A DNA stretch of 21,875 nt from the IMG/VR virus record IMGVR_UViG_3300027759_000476, positions 1-21,875 of that record; one strand, 5' to 3'. This DNA comes from a virus. Shown piece after piece: positions 8,018 through 18,820 of this stretch. How positions within the stretch are numbered: the stretch's first letter is position 1; the number at the start of each line of letters is the position of its first letter. Both the position numbers and the translations under genes were made by a program. The notes below the pieces were generated by a model. That model was not told the DNA's origin and made no database searches. It worked only from the letters and a program-made list of their open reading frames with translations.

Positions 8018-9862
8018 TTATCCTGTAGTTGGTAAAAAACTTGTGTCTATAATTCCGTCTGGTATAATTGGAGGATTCTCTATTATATTTCTAAGTATCT
8101 GTTCGTTTATATTCTCTGCTAAAAATTGTTCGTTGATTCTACGTAATCCGTCGGTTAGTAAAACTCTAGTATCCGCTTGAGCTTTTGCTTCACTATCGAT
8201 TATCATATTTCTATTCGCTAATAGTGCAGGTATATCGTTAAGCTCTTGTGCTCGTCTTGGTAAAATGTCCATGATAGGTTTGAAACTAACAGCAACGTTT
8301 AAGTAGTGCGGTAATTCTCCTACAGCTCTGCTTTCCTTCTCTCCGGCTAAAGACGCTATTTCCCAAGACGTATTGTCTTCTATTGAAATGTTGATGCTTT
8401 CTAAAACTCCTGGAGTTCTGTATAAATAATCGCCAATGGTTAATTTAATAATTGGCGCTCTCATTGCAGAAGTAGTCGGACTGTAATCTGGGTAAACTTG
8501 ACTGGTTAGATAGTTAAGCTTCTCATACATTGGTCTCAATTCAGGTCTTGACTGAGCAAATATTTTGAAAGAGAAAGAAACTGTACGATCGAACCCTTGA
8601 TATGTTCTAAAGTTTTCGCCTCTACCCAAATATCTAAATGTGTTGTATTCTCCAGAGTGATTATCTGATATGCCAGATAAAAATGCTCTAAACACTAAAG
8701 CTGTTGTTTTGGTAGGATTATCGTTAGATATTGCCTCGAAAGCAAATTTAATTATGTCTTTAGCATCTGGATTATCGAATGGTGAGCCTCCTTCGTTAAC
8801 ATTAAACGGCATCAATGTATTTAATCTGTCTATACCCAAGTCTGTGCCTCTAACGTAAGAAGTAAAAGTACGATTTAATCTACTAATTCTAGGATCTCCA
8901 GGATTTCCAGTTTTCATTTTATTTTGAATGCTATCTTCAGCAAAATTCCAAGCTTTAGATCGCTGAGCTGGACTTGCTACTTGACTTCTGAAATCTTGTA
9001 TGTTTGAAACGTTTTGAAATAGCGCATTAGATCTATTAGTTTGTTGCTTCTTTATCTGATCGTATGTAAGAGTGAGTATATTCGAAACTAGTGTTGTATC
9101 TGTAGCTCTTCTTATTACTGTTTTTCCAACTCCGTAAGTAGATCCAGGGCCTTGTGCGTAATCGAATAGGATACTTTTATTCAAAGACATCCCCAAAGTA
9201 TTGTACAAAGTAGGATCAGAGAAAACGACTTCTCTGCTACTATTAAACATTTTTGTTTGATAGAAAGCGTATAGTCTATTTCTATCTTTTCCGTTTACTG
9301 TACTGAATTGCTTTTGAATGGTAGCAGCGTAAAAGTTTTGAAACTGAAAGCCGTTGATACCAATTCTATCTGGTCTGTATCCTGTGCCAGAAGTTAGTAC
9401 TGCGTTTAGTAAATTTTTTCCGCTTGGATCGTATATCCACGTATTTGGAATAGAGCCAAAAGAAGTGGATTGGTAACCTTGTGTGGTTTCCATTCTAGGA
9501 TTTGTTTTCTGTAATTCAACTTGCTTCTTTAAAAAAGCTGGTCCTTTCGCTGCGTCTTTAAGAAATTTTGATATTCTTAATTGATCTATCTCACCGGTTA
9601 AAGTTCTTCTAGCAGTTCCAGTTCCTGGGTCTAACTCTGATCCTCCTCTTATTGGATAATCTAAACCGTTTCTATTCTTTTGATAGTATTGTAAAATAGC
9701 ATTTGTAACTGGTCCAGCATCTTGCATCGGAAATTTAACGTAAGGTAAACCAGAATTTCCGCCTTGTGGTTGATCCATTCCGTATTTCAACATGGTAAAG
9801 TCGGTCTTCTGATTTAAGAAAACTGAATCTGATAGGTTGGAAGAGTTATAGTTTAGCGGCAT
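8018..9862 (-). CDS. Baseplate/tail-tube-type structural protein
   Basis: The clearest part of this 614-residue protein is about 420-550: GRGENFRTYQGFDRTVSFSF, then a stretch with IYxK-like spacing (RPMYEKLNYLTSQVYPDYSP), then KLTIGDYLYRTPGVLESINI, and finally PHYLNVAVSFKPI. This succession resembles the tube-fold domains of proteins that start or cap tail tubes at the baseplate, a role filled by gp48 and gp54 in T4. The N-terminal part is Asn/Gln/Ser-rich with no recognisable motif. It lies between the tape measure and LysM genes, and its start codon overlaps the tape measure stop (TAATG), which suggests coupled translation. The structural role is fairly secure from context. Which T4 protein it corresponds to is not. 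Confidence 0.7.
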   Translation of the reverse strand: MPLNYNSSNLSDSVFLNQKTDFTMLKYGMDQPQGGNSGLPYVKFPMQDAGPVTNAILQYYQKNRNGLDYPIRGGSELDPGTGTARRTLTGEIDQLRISKFLKDAAKGPAFLKKQVELQKTNPRMETTQGYQSTSFGSIPNTWIYDPSGKNLLNAVLTSGTGYRPDRIGINGFQFQNFYAATIQKQFSTVNGKDRNRLYAFYQTKMFNSSREVVFSDPTLYNTLGMSLNKSILFDYAQGPGSTYGVGKTVIRRATDTTLVSNILTLTYDQIKKQQTNRSNALFQNVSNIQDFRSQVASPAQRSKAWNFAEDSIQNKMKTGNPGDPRISRLNRTFTSYVRGTDLGIDRLNTLMPFNVNEGGSPFDNPDAKDIIKFAFEAISNDNPTKTTALVFRAFLSGISDNHSGEYNTFRYLGRGENFRTYQGFDRTVSFSFKIFAQSRPELRPMYEKLNYLTSQVYPDYSPTTSAMRAPIIKLTIGDYLYRTPGVLESINISIEDNTSWEIASLAGEKESRAVGELPHYLNVAVSFKPIMDILPRRAQELNDIPALLANRNMIIDSEAKAQADTRVLLTDGLRRINEQFLAENINEQILRNIIENPPIIPDGIIDTSFLPTTG

Positions 9863-12800
9863 TACGAATTGTATCTAGTTGTGTCGAAATTTGTGTAAGA
9901 GTTATTTTCGAAACTGTTTAACATTAATTTACCGGTTGGAACTCCGTCCAATACAACGTTTCCTGTAATGAATCGCACTTGATCTTTGGATACGTCTGAT
10001 TTTTGAGTCACCAATTTTGCCAATAACTCTACTGTCTTTCTTGAATTTTCTGTGGTCATTTTTATGAACTGTAAACTGCTAGCTCCCAAATAGGTTTCTC
10101 CTGAATGTACTTCTGCAATTCCAGATGTTTGAACGTATCCGCCTTCGTCTAGTTTACTTAAGCTTTTATTTTTTGGATTTTTAACGGATTCTTCTGCGTC
10201 TAGTTTACTTAAGCTTTTATTTTTTGGATTTTTAACGGATTCTTCTGCGTCTAGTACACTTACATCTTTGCCTTTAGAAATTTTATTGGCTTCGTTTTGT
10301 TGTAATTGCCCCAAACTTTGACTTCTTAAATTTTGGCCAAAGCCTTTAATTATGTCTCCGTAGTCTTCTGCTATTTCGTCCTTTCCGAATAAAAATAAAT
10401 TTGCTATCTTAGAAGCTCCATTAACGAAGGTTCCTATGCCTTCTAAAACAGTTGCAAAGAAATCTTTTAAACCGTTTACAAATCCTTGAATTTTACTTGG
10501 ATTAGACATAAAGTCTATTGCTTTGTCTATGAATTCGCTAACGCCTGAATTTGAGATAAGATCTGTGAAGCCTTGTTTTATTTTTTCTATCAATGCAGCC
10601 AATCTTTCGTTAGCGGCGCCTGAAGCCAGTGCTTGGTATTGTTGCCTTTCTTGTTCAGTAGTAATATCCTTCATCGTAGCAAACTTCTTCTTTGCTAATT
10701 CGTACTGCTCTTTAGCTGACTGGCCGTCTTTTGCTCCTATCTTAGATAAGAACTCTTGCTTCTTTAACATGTCAGCCATCGTGTCCCTAGTCATACCAAA
10801 GCTAGATGCTAATGACTCTGCTGCAATTCTATTTAAACCTAAGAACTGTTCTGAATTTCCAACTTGTTTTGTTATTTCTTGAGCCGCTGTAACTAAATCG
10901 TTGTTTAAGAAAGCCTCTCTTGCTTTATTTAAGTTGATATCTTTGCCCGTCAACAACTGAGCTTCCATTTCTTTGCTAATAGAAGACTCGTAATCCAAGA
11001 AAGAATCTGCTAACGCGTCTACCTGTTTTAATTCTAGACCCATTGCTTTTGTTTGCAATACGGCCTTTGTAATTTTTTCTGGATACTTGGCGAATGTTAA
11101 TCCTAAATAGCCTCCTAAATTACTAACCTCTTTTAATACTGCTTTGTAGTCTTGCGTAGCTAATCCGGCTTTTTTAAGATTTTCTACTTGTTGTAGTACG
11201 TTTCCAACAATGTCTTTTGATTCTTTTCCAGTAATTACGGAAGTTTGAGCAATACTAGCTTGTATGTCTTCTTCTAATCCTAAAACGTCTTTTAATCTTA
11301 TGTTAGTGCTTAGTATCTCGTTAGATAGAATCGAAGTAGTGCCCAATTGTTTACTAAGACCAATTTGAGCTTCGTAAAGTTTTTTAGTGTTTACGAAAAC
11401 ATCGTTGGTGCTATTCGCAACGTTACTAAAGTTGTTTGCTAGCTTTTGAGCTTCTGCCGCATCCAAACCAAGTTCGCGACCCATTTTTACGAACTGAGAA
11501 TTGGCATTCATAGCGTAATCCATGAATGTCGACATTACATCGACTAAGCCTCCCAATAATCCACCAACTAAAGGTATCTTTTCTAAGAATCCGCTAATTG
11601 GCTTCGTAAGATTTTGAATAGGTCCGTCCGCTAATTCTCCACCAATGGCTTTCATTCCACCGATCATTCCGTCTCTGAACATTTTTATTGTTCCCTGTAA
11701 AGCAGAGTTTAGCGCTTTAGCAGCGCCTAAGAATAATCCTGCTTTGAATAGAGGATCGTTTTTCCAAGAGTCAGCAAAAGAGGTTTTAAACGCTTTAAAT
11801 CCTGCGGTGAATACTCCGGACTTTGGAACTTCTATTAAAGCGATTGGTTTTTTGCCTTGAGCCTTTCTAACTTCATTTATAGCCGCTATTCTATCGTTCT
11901 TTCTTTTTATGTCTTCTTTGAATTCTGCGGTGTTCTGTACTTGAAGCTCTCTAGATCGTCTTACCATTGCCTCGTAGACTTCATTACCCATTCCCAACTT
12001 TTTAGAAAAGTTTTCGAATGCTTTTCCAGTAAGACCAATAGAACTCTGTATTTGTTTTTCTTTTTCTAATTGAGTTTGTAGATCTTTTACTGTTAAAGAC
12101 AGTACGTCTTTACTTTTTGATCTAGCTATGTACTCTGCTTGAAGCGGTGTTAAATTATTTTTTATTGCTTCGTAATTCTGCTCTTCAAGATCTATTAGAT
12201 TTCTGGCCTCTTTTTGTCTTTGTGTTAAATCGTCTAATTGTGATTTTTGTAATAACTCCTCTTGATTTTTTATTGACTCTATTGACGAATACCTTTGTTT
12301 GGCTTCGTTTAATCTAGCGATCGCTATAGCTTCTTCTTGAGCTCTTAATCGTGAGTTTTGTATATTTTGAGTGCCAATCAAGTCCATTTCTGCATCTTCT
12401 TGTTCTTTTTTTGCAGATAGTATTGAATTGTTTAATTCCTCAAAAAGATCTTTGTTGGCATTTATAACCTCTTCTTGCTTTTGGTTTAAACTCAATAATT
12501 CTTTCTCTGAGTTTATCTTCCTTTTTTGCGATTGTGCAAGTCTTGATTCGTATGTTAACGCTTCTCTATATTGATTTCCCTCTAATAGGCCTAACGCTCT
12601 TTCTGTCTCTCTTAATTTAGCAGCATTTATAAATTGCTTAGACATCTGATCGTTAATATCAGATTGTATTTTTTTTACGTCTAAAGAGTTTGATCTAAAT
12701 CCCTCAATAGAAGACCTAACCTTATCGTATCCAGTTTGAAGCTTTTTTAGTTCGTTTACTTGATCTTTTATAATATCGTTAAAATCAGCTCCGTCTCTTA

Positions 12801-12912
12801 CAAGCTGTTTAAATGCTCTTTGTATGTCTTTTAATTCTGACGCACTTTGAGCACTAGCCGGGTTAGGGGCGCTTTGTCCTGTATTTTGATTATTTTGATT
12901 TTCGTTGGCCAT
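9862..12912 (-). CDS. Tail tape measure protein
   Basis: This 1016-residue protein begins with about 350 residues of charged, Gln/Glu/Lys-rich coiled coil. A hydrophobic Gly/Ala/Leu-rich stretch (about 390-470, including GFLEKIPLVGGLLGGLVDVM) follows, then more helices, and the C-terminus is mixed. This is the usual build of a tape measure, which sets tail length, fills the tube before injection, and may enter the host membrane. Its place after the tail chaperone pair and before baseplate genes is the standard order. At about 0.15 nm per helical residue the length would allow a tail of up to roughly 150 nm, longer than T4's; this is an estimate only. Residues 888-922 hold a perfect 17-residue tandem repeat. 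The start is preceded by ATATTTATT only a few bases away, overlapping the stop of the preceding ORF. Confidence 0.85.
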   Translation of the reverse strand: MANENQNNQNTGQSAPNPASAQSASELKDIQRAFKQLVRDGADFNDIIKDQVNELKKLQTGYDKVRSSIEGFRSNSLDVKKIQSDINDQMSKQFINAAKLRETERALGLLEGNQYREALTYESRLAQSQKRKINSEKELLSLNQKQEEVINANKDLFEELNNSILSAKKEQEDAEMDLIGTQNIQNSRLRAQEEAIAIARLNEAKQRYSSIESIKNQEELLQKSQLDDLTQRQKEARNLIDLEEQNYEAIKNNLTPLQAEYIARSKSKDVLSLTVKDLQTQLEKEKQIQSSIGLTGKAFENFSKKLGMGNEVYEAMVRRSRELQVQNTAEFKEDIKRKNDRIAAINEVRKAQGKKPIALIEVPKSGVFTAGFKAFKTSFADSWKNDPLFKAGLFLGAAKALNSALQGTIKMFRDGMIGGMKAIGGELADGPIQNLTKPISGFLEKIPLVGGLLGGLVDVMSTFMDYAMNANSQFVKMGRELGLDAAEAQKLANNFSNVANSTNDVFVNTKKLYEAQIGLSKQLGTTSILSNEILSTNIRLKDVLGLEEDIQASIAQTSVITGKESKDIVGNVLQQVENLKKAGLATQDYKAVLKEVSNLGGYLGLTFAKYPEKITKAVLQTKAMGLELKQVDALADSFLDYESSISKEMEAQLLTGKDINLNKAREAFLNNDLVTAAQEITKQVGNSEQFLGLNRIAAESLASSFGMTRDTMADMLKKQEFLSKIGAKDGQSAKEQYELAKKKFATMKDITTEQERQQYQALASGAANERLAALIEKIKQGFTDLISNSGVSEFIDKAIDFMSNPSKIQGFVNGLKDFFATVLEGIGTFVNGASKIANLFLFGKDEIAEDYGDIIKGFGQNLRSQSLGQLQQNEANKISKGKDVSVLDAEESVKNPKNKSLSKLDAEESVKNPKNKSLSKLDEGGYVQTSGIAEVHSGETYLGASSLQFIKMTTENSRKTVELLAKLVTQKSDVSKDQVRFITGNVVLDGVPTGKLMLNSFENNSYTNFDTTRYNS
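10148..10249 (-). repeat. Two perfect 51-bp tandem copies in the tape measure gene
   Basis: Bases 10148-10198 and 10199-10249 are identical. Each encodes the 17 residues DAEESVKNPKNKSLSKL in frame, with a degenerate partial copy starting at 10250. Complete identity at synonymous sites points to a recent duplication. Confidence 0.95.
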
Positions 12913-12918
12913 GGCTAC

Positions 12919-12930
12919 AAATAAATATTT
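12919..12930 (-). promoter_or_regulatory. ATATTTATT element upstream of the tape measure gene
   Basis: The coding strand reads AAATATTTATTT, ending 6 bases before the tape measure start and overlapping the stop codon of the upstream small ORF. If this is a promoter -7/-10 element, the transcript would be almost leaderless. It may instead act in translation, or be a chance AT-rich match. Confidence 0.35.
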
Positions 12931-13192
12931 AAGCCTTTGGTTTTGCCTTGCTTGTTACGTAAGAAGGTTTAGATTGGATATTTTGCTTCACTGCATCAGG
13001 TATTTGCATCTTGGATTTATCAGAATTCTCAGTAAGAACCTTATCGTTCTCATTTTGAGCCTCTTGCAGCCTTTCCAAATGTTCTTTTATCTTTTTTATG
13101 TTGAACTTTCTCTTTGAGATGTCCATGTTCCAGACCTCAGTATAATTGAAGCCTCCTCCGCCGTGATAAACAAGGTCGAAGACTTCAGTCAT
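12929..13192 (-). CDS. Tail chaperone frameshift extension (T-like ORF)
   Basis: Read alone, this ORF encodes 87 residues from an ATG at 13192, but no ribosome binding site precedes that ATG. The frame stays open upstream through the end of the chaperone gene to the slippery site at 13218-13229. It encodes a short N-terminal Gly-rich segment (YHGGGGFNYTEVWNMD, 9-24), then a charged helix and a Lys/Ser-rich tail ending KPKA. In long-tailed phages the gene before the tape measure is very often made as two products, a short chaperone (G) and a frameshifted G-T fusion whose extra domain contacts the tube protein. The gene order and the open +1 frame fit that scheme: a shift after the second TTT would give a fusion of about 347 residues. 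Independent translation from 13192 is the alternative. Confidence 0.7.
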   Translation of the reverse strand: MTEVFDLVYHGGGGFNYTEVWNMDISKRKFNIKKIKEHLERLQEAQNENDKVLTENSDKSKMQIPDAVKQNIQSKPSYVTSKAKPKA

Positions 13193-13202
13193 GAATACAG
13201 AT

Positions 13203-13973
13203 CTATATTCCGCTCCCGGGAAAAAAGAACTCGGCTGTCATTGGCAGCTCGTCGATGACCTCCTCACCATCTTTAGTCTTGAACGTGATTTTAGTATCGA
13301 TATCTGGAATAACGCTCTCAATGTACTTTCTTAAAGGCAAAGAGTCTTGAGAAAGTAAAGCGCCTGAATCAATAAAGTCTCTTACTGTCTTTGTAGAGTA
13401 ATCTCCGTTAACAGAAGTGATCTGATGTTTTAACTTTGTTGTCAATAAACCGGGTGCTGCTTCTCCTAAGTTTTTTCTTAGACCTTTAATCTCTTCGTCT
13501 ATTTTTCTGTCTTCGGCAATCGTTAAGGCTTTGAAAGTAACCGTGTTTTTAGTAAAAGGCAATTCGAAGCTAAATTCGTTCTTTTCGTTGAATAGAGTGG
13601 TATTTACCGTTTTGTACTTAACTGATTGTAAGTCGCCCTTTACAACTTCGGATTCCATAGTGCTTGGATTGAAGTAGTTAAATGAGTAGTCTTTACCGTA
13701 AGCTAATATTCTAGCTGCGATAAGAATAGCATTCCTGTCGCCCAGGATCAGATCCTCGTAGTTTATTGGAGTTTTAATGATAGACTTAAGCATCTTTTCA
13801 ATGGCTAAGCCCTGACGTAACAGATTCGCATTGGTGAGAATGTCCTCTTCTCTTGCGGTCATGTATTTGATTTCGATTTGCCCTGCAGCAAGCGGGGAAT
13901 CTTTTGGGTATAATAAACCCTTTGAAGGAAGGTCTACCATTTCGGTAGGTACTGTAAACTTTGGTTCTGACAT
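13203..13973 (-). CDS. Tail assembly chaperone, T4 gp26/gp51 baseplate family
   Basis: This 256-residue protein starts with VDLPSKGLLYPKDSPLAAGQ (18-37). Next comes IEIKYMTAREEDILTNANLL (38-57), then LAIEKMLKSII, DLILGDRNAILIAARILAYG and a C-terminal helical part (EDRKIDEEIKGLRKNLGE, about 157-174). These are the hallmarks of the T4 gp26-type baseplate family, whose members act as tail assembly chaperones rather than main virion parts. It is encoded after the sheath and tube genes and before the tape measure, the usual chaperone position. The last codons (TTC TTT TTT CCC) form a shift-prone run from which the frame can move into the next ORF. The gene has its own leader, with an ATATTTATT element just after the tube gene's terminator. 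Confidence 0.8.
   Translation of the reverse strand: MSEPKFTVPTEMVDLPSKGLLYPKDSPLAAGQIEIKYMTAREEDILTNANLLRQGLAIEKMLKSIIKTPINYEDLILGDRNAILIAARILAYGKDYSFNYFNPSTMESEVVKGDLQSVKYKTVNTTLFNEKNEFSFELPFTKNTVTFKALTIAEDRKIDEEIKGLRKNLGEAAPGLLTTKLKHQITSVNGDYSTKTVRDFIDSGALLSQDSLPLRKYIESVIPDIDTKITFKTKDGEEVIDELPMTAEFFFPGSGI
13218..13229 (-). promoter_or_regulatory. Candidate +1 (or -2) ribosomal frameshift site
   Basis: The coding strand reads TTC TTT TTT CCC, five codons before the end of the chaperone sense codons. One tRNA-Phe can pair with TTT or, one base on, with TTC, so a +1 slip keeps pairing in both sites. The following CCC Pro codon is likely rare in this AT-rich genome and could cause a pause. 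After the slip the frame reads CCG GGA GCG GAA with no stop through to 12929. Confidence 0.6.
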
Positions 13974-14071: not shown

Positions 14072-14557
14072 TTAGAAGTTCAAGATAGCGTAGTCCATAC
14101 CCAAAGTCATTGTTAACTCTGTAGGATCTGAAGTAGACCAGTCGTAAGTTCCGAAGTTTGTTTCTTTGATGAAAGCGCCCTTGCAGATCCACTCTGATAC
14201 GATATCTCCAACTGGTCCAAGGATTGACAAGTTAATGTCTTTCTTGTAGAAGTCAGAATAACCGTTTCTACCTGTTACAGACTCATGATGTAAACGTACC
14301 CATTCCATAATAGCTTCTTGGCCTGATGGACTAATTGGATTGTACAAAGACAATGTGATGTCTCTCCACTCAGCTTTTCCTTTAATCTTACGGTAAACGT
14401 TGATATGATCTAATTTGATCTCGTTTAAAGTAAGACCTGGCGCATCGGCTTTTTTAATCATATATGAAGGAATACCGTCGATGTACATTACAAATCTATT
14501 CGATACTGTAGGTTCGAACGCGGTAAACATTATTTCATTTGGGTCTAATACTGGCAT
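14072..14557 (-). CDS. gp19: Tail tube protein (gp19-like)
   Basis: This 161-residue protein is the same length class as T4 gp19 (163 residues). Visible landmarks are FEPTVSNRFVMYIDGIPSYM (14-33), ADAPGLTLNEIKLDHINVYR (about 37-56), WRDITLSLYNPISPSGQEAI (about 64-83), and a C-terminal block with YDWSTSDPTELTMTLGMDYA (about 138-157). This is the standard pattern of contractile-tail inner tube proteins: hexamers stack into the tube that the sheath drives through the envelope. It is encoded after the sheath and a small Lys-rich gene and is followed by a strong terminator. Its own ATATTTAT element lies upstream. Tube protein is needed in large amounts, so a separate promoter and terminator make sense. 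Confidence 0.93.
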   Translation of the reverse strand: MPVLDPNEIMFTAFEPTVSNRFVMYIDGIPSYMIKKADAPGLTLNEIKLDHINVYRKIKGKAEWRDITLSLYNPISPSGQEAIMEWVRLHHESVTGRNGYSDFYKKDINLSILGPVGDIVSEWICKGAFIKETNFGTYDWSTSDPTELTMTLGMDYAILNF

Positions 14558-17797: not shown

Positions 17798-18820
17798 TTA
17801 GAAGCTTCTTATTGCTCTAATATAACTTGTAAAAGTCTTATCGTAGTAAATTTGATATCCAGTATCAAAAGCTTGACCCATTGCCGTAATACCATCTCCA
17901 GTCTCTGTAGAAGATCTATAAAATTTATCCCCTTCTAATCCACCGATTGCAACTCTATTAATGTATAATTTATTAAGTTCATCTTGACTAGGTAAATACC
18001 AATCAGAATATCCTCCTTCTACTAAATCATAACAAAGTCTAGCTGCTATTCCAGATTCTAAACATCCTGCAACAATTGTATTAGTATTTGCGTTTCCTGT
18101 GCCTATTGCTATTCCATATGCGCCTAAAAGTGTACCATAGCAACCAAATGGTGCTCCTGTCGAAATATCAGCTGCTGTTGCTACTAAACCATGTTGTACA
18201 CTAGCGTTATATCCTGGATCTCCTGATTGTAGAATATATGCGATAGTTCCGCCTAATGCGGATTGTCCTATGGTATAAGTAGGAGCAGGGGTTGCTGATA
18301 CACTTGGAGTTCTTGTTGGAGTTATAGTAGGCGTTATCGTTGGAGCCGGAGTAGCTGATACGCTTGGAGTTCTTGTTGGAGTTACAGTTGGAGCTGGCGT
18401 TGTGGATACGCTTGGAGTTACAGTTACAGCAGGAGTAGCTGATGCACTTGGAGTTCTTGTCGGTGTTACCGTTGGAGCTGGTGTTACGGATACGCTTGTG
18501 CTTGGGGTAACTGAAATACTGGGTGTAGCAGAAACAGTTGTGCTTGGCGTAATTGAAACCGAAGGCGTAACTGATATGCTTACCGAAGGAGTGATAGAAA
18601 TGGGAGGCGTTGATGACACTGTAACCGAAGGCGTAACTGATATGCTTACAGAAGGAGTAATAGAAACCGTAACTGATGGAGTAACAGATACGCTTGGAGT
18701 TACGCTTGCGCCTGGCGGTACGTACGCGCTAACCTGTATTATATTGAGGCCTCCGCCGTTACCATTTTTAGTTAGAGTAAAGCCTCCTTGATTTGTCCTT
18801 TTTTGAAATTCTATTGGCAT
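17798..18820 (-). CDS. Adhesin-like protein: Ser/Thr/Pro repeat stalk plus DUF1566 domain
   Basis: The protein has 340 residues. Residues 1-37 contain a Gly-rich segment. Residues 38-181 are nearly pure repeats of the TPSVSVTPS, SVSATPAPT and TPTRTPS types, which would form an extended stalk. Residues 183-340 match the DUF1566 family, also called the Lcl C-terminal domain after a Legionella adhesin: GGTIAYIL (190-197), SDWYLPSQDELNKLY (272-286), YRSSTE (301-306) and YIRAIRSF (333-340). In Legionella this domain takes part in sticking to host polysaccharides, so a receptor-binding role on the phage is likely. It follows the two fibre genes. No ATATTTAT element precedes it, so it is probably on the fibre message. 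No signal peptide is visible. Confidence 0.8.
   Translation of the reverse strand: MPIEFQKRTNQGGFTLTKNGNGGGLNIIQVSAYVPPGASVTPSVSVTPSVTVSITPSVSISVTPSVTVSSTPPISITPSVSISVTPSVSITPSTTVSATPSISVTPSTSVSVTPAPTVTPTRTPSASATPAVTVTPSVSTTPAPTVTPTRTPSVSATPAPTITPTITPTRTPSVSATPAPTYTIGQSALGGTIAYILQSGDPGYNASVQHGLVATAADISTGAPFGCYGTLLGAYGIAIGTGNANTNTIVAGCLESGIAARLCYDLVEGGYSDWYLPSQDELNKLYINRVAIGGLEGDKFYRSSTETGDGITAMGQAFDTGYQIYYDKTFTSYIRAIRSF
18278..18709 (-). repeat. Degenerate tandem repeats encoding Ser/Thr/Pro/Val stalk
   Basis: This stretch encodes residues 38-181 of the DUF1566 protein as short repeats built on TPSV, TPAPT and TPTRTP. Near-identical DNA units such as GATACGCTTGGAGTT (plus strand) recur, so the array probably grows and shrinks by recombination. 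Confidence 0.85.

Follow-up and report, generated by a model that had tools for sequence, protein, structure and literature searches.

Long-tailed phages other than T4 share a conserved frameshift in the tail genes, which is -1, -2 or +1 depending on the phage (PMC5009743). Phage lambda makes a short and an extended tail assembly chaperone, G and GT, from one gene located before the tape measure gene (PMC5009743), by a -1 shift, and the shift in the tail chaperone gene of HSTV-2 is "very likely +1" (PMC5009743). For T4-like phages, separate short and fused chaperone genes and poly-T -1 signals are attributed to Vladimirov, Gautam and Davidson (2022) in two papers that cite their work (PMC10885494, PMC12846349). 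A T4 review counts both gp26 and gp51 among the hub assembly chaperones and describes gp51 as essential and of unknown function (PMC3004832). Here we analyzed a gp26-like gene in the IMG/VR virus record IMGVR_UViG_3300027759_000476, positions 1 to 21,875 (hereafter the window, i.e., the entire 21.9 kb viral contig). We consider it highly probable that the product of this locus is the tail assembly chaperone of a contractile phage of the T4 type, in two forms, a short one and a long one made via a +1 frameshift. At the level of sequence, this reading rests on the pair of frames, the conservation of the slip motif, purifying selection in the extension and the homology of the long form to gp51.

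The tail genes of the window, including all features described below for this locus, are on the minus strand. The gp26-like open reading frame (ORF) at 13203..13973 encodes the short form of 256 residues (28.7 kDa) and matches PF12322 (T4_baseplate) with an E-value of 2e-7, above the curated cut-off of the Pfam scan, and phrog_150 with an E-value of 3e-12 in the PHROG scan. Its 3' end reads GAG TTC TTT TTT CCC GGG AGC GGA ATA TAG, in which TTC TTT TTT (13221..13229) specifies Phe codons 249-251, CCC (13218..13220) is the next codon and the TAG stop (13203..13205) lies six codons past the last TTT. The +1 frame is free of stops from just upstream of this site to 12929. When TTTC (13223-13220) is taken as one step and base 13220 is skipped, an open frame of 347 residues (39.3 kDa) results, composed of 13973..13221 and 13219..12929. 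Its extension (12929..13219) has 96 codons plus the stop and takes in the whole of a second ORF (ORF2), an 87-codon ORF with an internal ATG (12929..13192). The initial annotation, made from the letters alone, had described the ORF ending and the open +1 frame around ORF2 and had put the fusion at about 347 residues and about 39 kDa; all of this agrees with the sequence and with the values computed here. A scan of 18 window genes found a single in-frame TTT TTT C, the one at the slip site, and CCC is the rarest Pro codon of the window at 1.6 per 1000. On base composition alone the chance of 90 stop-free codons is about 0.001; a chance open frame is ruled out because the out-of-frame ORF is conserved in hundreds of relatives.

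We infer the slippage itself and its frequency, the pause on CCC and the chaperone role in the following form. Most ribosomes would stop at the TAG (13205-13203) and release the 256-residue short form. A minority would pause with tRNA-Phe on the last TTT (13223-13221) in the peptidyl-tRNA (P) site, the proposed slip codon, while the rare codon CCC waits in the aminoacyl-tRNA (A) site as the proposed slow codon; the tRNA would then re-pair one base forward on TTC, and translation of the +1 frame to 12929 would give the long form of 347 residues. If the two forms work as G and GT do in lambda, the short one may coat the tape measure protein and the long one may recruit tail tube subunits through its extension.

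Relatives were collected from four IMG/VR scans, from tblastn of phage records and from six T4-like genomes; one search used a hand-written consensus-like probe, solely to find phage records. The survey comprises 341 loci including the window, of which 334 reach the end of gp26. In 329 of the 334 loci ORF2 comes immediately after gp26 and out of frame with it, a count that includes related contigs, which are not independent events, and that relies on an ORF2 profile built from the surveyed loci, so that it shows position and frame and not independent homology. Relative to gp26, ORF2 is in the +1 frame in 305 loci, in the -1 frame in 24 and in the same frame in none. The profile detected no ORF2 in five loci, namely L245 and L294 (contig end), L233 (stop inside ORF2), L288 and Salmonella phage Vi01 (L105). 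In L288, an unrelated frame that looks by eye like a GIY-YIG homing endonuclease replaces ORF2 past the gp26 stop (after position 1965). In Vi01, a PHROG model weakly detects ORF2 in the -1 frame around 2290-2470, and the site there reads GAA ATT TTC ATT TAA, with no canonical heptamer. A one-base assembly or sequencing error in the T run of a single in-frame gene would look the same in any one contig, but the out-of-frame ORF2 is present in hundreds of independent contigs and several isolate genomes, never in the gp26 frame, and the direction of the shift differs by lineage. The survey refutes such an error, to which we assign practically no probability. The slip site and the open +1 frame, whose absence from related phages the initial annotation had named as telling against a frameshift, are conserved in close relatives of the window (L027 has a shorter T run but retains TTT C), and conservation of the arrangement reaches far outside the window's clade.

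The protein family is shared with T4. Both T4 gp26 and gp51 match PF12322 and phrog_150, and gp51 reaches the end of the profile while gp26 does not. In hhalign comparisons, the +1 fusions align end to end with the fusions of S-PM2, KVP40, HTVC008M and phiM12 (E-value 1.7e-17), which are -1 fusions; these in turn align nearly end to end with T4 gp51 (E-value 1.5e-7), and T4 gp26 aligns solely with their N-terminal part (E-value 8.6e-14). Since gp51 aligns with nearly the whole -1 fusion and gp26 with its N-terminal part, T4 gp26 is, as judged from these alignments, the counterpart of the short form and gp51 that of the long form. The +1 fusion appears co-linear with T4 gp51 by two steps through the -1 fusions. 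ORF2 itself corresponds to the C-terminal part of gp51, which is a full-length gp26-like protein plus an in-frame extension; nothing firm was found for ORF2 in the Pfam and PHROG scans. The comparison drawn in the initial annotation with separate T4 genes 26 and 51 stands as to their being separate, and these genes are divergently transcribed, but ORF2 matches only the C-terminal part of gp51. The structures of gp26 and ORF2 were predicted separately. The gp26 model (AlphaFold2, predicted local distance difference test score 89) matches predicted baseplate hub proteins of other phages, and a Foldseek search of the PDB found no significant match. The best re-aligned solved chain is YqbN (3klu; Z 5.5, root-mean-square deviation 4.7 over 89 residues), and a Z below 8 may reflect only a common arrangement. 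We take YqbN to be an XkdN-type tail assembly chaperone. PF08890 (Phage_TAC_5) gave no match in the immuto or Mel-JY01 genomes.

When the +1 sites were compared, all 214 distinct contexts were found to have, in the final 12 codons and where both frames are open, a TTT or CTT codon whose next base is T or C. TTT T is the predominant type (174 contexts), followed by TTT C (22) and CTT T (18). The commonest form is TTT TTT TGG CCT, and the window's clade has TTC TTT TTT CCC, with CCC kept in most of its members. Together with the out-of-frame position of ORF2, this invariant motif supports the proposal in the initial annotation of +1 slippage on a Phe codon. In the -1 loci, 19 of 21 distinct contexts hold T TTT TTC or T TTT TTT. 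In L089 and Vi01, ORF2 is in the -1 frame with no clear heptamer. The window has its extension in the +1 frame and so does not follow the canonical -1 heptamer (X XXY YYZ). The codon before TTT TTT ends in T in only 4 of 184 +1 cases, where about 103 would be expected among the 172 able to do so, given each gene's own synonymous usage. Since the 0 frame alone reads the preceding base, this deficit of T suggests that the +1 sites avoid the -1 heptamer, or longer T runs. A second constraint is seen further downstream: where a 0-frame Pro codon follows TGG or TAC, it is CCT in each of the 86 cases, whereas CCA is preferred elsewhere; this is the pattern to be expected of a site at which the +1 codon CTN is translated as well. 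Like the locus counts, these site counts draw on related contigs and do not represent independent events.

Some observations weigh against this reading or parts of it, in addition to the limits on the survey counts given above. The codon following the slip codon is TGG in 176 of the 214 contexts, and CCC is not usual, so that a rare-codon pause would not be general. RNA structure downstream of the site was no better than in shuffled sequences as a possible stimulator, and the consensus fold of the window's clade in this region is unconvincing. Direct hhalign comparison of the +1 fusions with single-sequence T4 gp51 or gp26 gave no significant result. Finally, a -2 shift, in which the tRNA moves back two bases on the T run and one extra Phe is added, yields the same frame, and both the window site and most TTT TTT sites permit the re-pairing it needs. 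Phage Mu uses a -2 shift (PMC5009743). On the other hand, eight distinct contexts (L027, L074, L075, L084, L087, L088, L091 and L283) permit re-pairing by +1 but not by -2 at the slip codon, and no context was found that forbids +1 while allowing -2. We therefore regard a -2 shift as improbable, in line with the preference for +1 expressed in the initial annotation. Transcriptional slippage on the T run would instead produce a second mRNA that is one base shorter, and most +1 sites do carry six or seven T. This we consider very improbable: in 22 distinct +1 contexts no run of more than three T is present near the site, and what is conserved is a codon-phased YTT (Y, C or T) followed by T or C.

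The remaining alternative is that ORF2 is a separate gene translated from its own ATG, with no fusion made. The window does have an ATG at 13192, several phages are annotated with a separate small gene at this place, and in L285 an ATG preceded by AAGGA is present at ORF2. But this ATG of the window lies about ten codons into the extension, within a predicted helix, and T4 gp51 carries the same extension in frame. Most +1 loci have no ATG early in the extension: within the first 19 codons past the site, ATG is absent from 84 of 103 loci, and ATG, GTG and TTG are all absent from 53 of 103. Both frames are also constrained at the slip site. A separate gene alone thus appears improbable, marginally more so than the -2 shift, and a +1 fusion is preferred, beside which an additional, separately started ORF2 product may be made. 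The initial annotation had remarked that the ORF2 ATG lacks a ribosome binding site. That is true; it is uninformative, as the starts of the gp26, tube, sheath and tape measure genes of the window also have no Shine-Dalgarno sequence, and the argument against ORF2 initiation was dropped for this reason. ORF2 is under purifying selection according to the substitution pattern: in the window's clade the median ratio of non-synonymous to synonymous substitution rates is 0.08 over 43 pairs, and the variable columns are mostly third positions. In L285 (1924-2100), about 50 extra bases are inserted between the slip site and ORF2, and the insertion region contains the ATG after AAGGA and a second FPGPEYR-like start; in this locus either ORF2 is started separately or the two parts are joined in another way.

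The direction of the shift was placed on trees built from gp26 minus its last eight codons; the trees were built by a quick method, and several long branches lie outside a clade of 28 rows. At least three changes of direction are needed. The 28-row clade is fully supported and contains 19 +1 and nine -1 members (L080, L199, L200, L203-L205, L207, L219 and L224). Within it, the +1 locus L208 ends with ATT AGT CTT AAC TTT TTT TGG CCT GAC CTC TGA and the -1 locus L207 with ATT TCT CTA AAT TTT TTC TGG CCG GAT CTC TAA, which specify the identical short ending ISLNFFWPDL and opposite shifts. This suggests that the direction is evolvable and probably set by a few, mostly synonymous, bases: a non-T base before TTT TTT gives +1, and T before TTT TT(C/T) gives -1. 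It is likewise probable that at least one clade has flipped from +1 to -1 while keeping the short ending, and that the +1 phages have been selected against the -1 heptamer. The sister phages L208 and L207 are a natural experiment on what sets the frameshift direction.

In comparison with T4, the window proteins belong to the same Pfam and PHROG family, the short form being like gp26 and the long form like gp51, but T4 has two separate divergent genes where the window has one gene with overlapping frames. S-PM2, KVP40, HTVC008M and phiM12 resemble the window in that a short gene and an extension overlapping it precede a large tail gene; unlike the window, their extension is in the -1 frame at a canonical T TTT TTC/T. 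The annotation of this second ORF in S-PM2 and KVP40 is gp51 or hub assembly catalyst, and jumbo phages also carry -1 sites in the gp26-type gene. The frameshifted version in the T4 gp26 family that the initial annotation had called instructive is thus not in itself a novelty. Like lambda G/GT, the locus would yield a short and an extended chaperone from a single gene ahead of the tape measure gene; a sequence relation between the lambda gene and the window gene was not found. HSTV-2 is likened to it by the +1 direction for the long form alone.

Sites of the YUU type are known from other +1 frameshifts, such as CUU UGA in prfB and UUU CGU in influenza PA-X. There, a P-site YUU re-pairs one base forward, as proposed for the window, and CTT T is found in 18 of our contexts. 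Unlike prfB, the window has no stop codon in the A site and no Shine-Dalgarno stimulator. The +1 site of Streptococcus phage GXN1 (L087, 2224-2250) is TTC TTT CGT C, which resembles the influenza PA-X site. In Flavobacterium phage immuto the site is TTT CTT TGG.

The T4 two-gene version and the -1 sites in T4-like phages were already described, according to the papers citing Vladimirov et al. (2022). No description of +1 shifting in the gp26-type chaperone family was found in the literature, in which that study was represented by its citing papers. The +1 shift in this family, the avoidance of the -1 heptamer and the clade that flipped from +1 to -1 are apparently new. Frameshifting of the T4-type chaperone gene appears to occur in a very broad range of phages and in both directions, T4 itself having two full genes, and T4 is the phage that a standard review sets apart from the conserved frameshift of tail genes (PMC5009743). 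The annotation of small genes is corrected accordingly: the cyanophage small "gp51" and the small "hypothetical proteins" before the tape measure gene would each be the C-terminal portion of a chaperone made as a fusion. The out-of-frame extension takes in small genes that carry the annotation hypothetical protein or gp51 in immuto (L082, 3851-3961), SP-15 (L086, 2330-2449), S-PM2 (L117, 1691-1864) and KVP40 (L118, 1613-1780).

The gp26-like gene sits between the tail tube and tape measure genes, a position that supports its reading as a tail assembly chaperone; the order is likewise annotated in immuto, SP-15 and LIS04. Directly upstream is the tail tube gene (14072..14557), which matches phrog_4542 (tail tube protein) with an E-value of 1.5e-23. 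The 1016-residue ORF directly downstream (9862..12912) has no family match of its own in the Pfam and PHROG scans and is probably the tape measure gene, as judged from its position and length and from its counterpart, annotated as tape measure in Flavobacterium phage immuto. Elsewhere in the window, a 340-residue ORF (17798-18820) contains a long run of SVTPSVS/TPTRTPS-like repeats.
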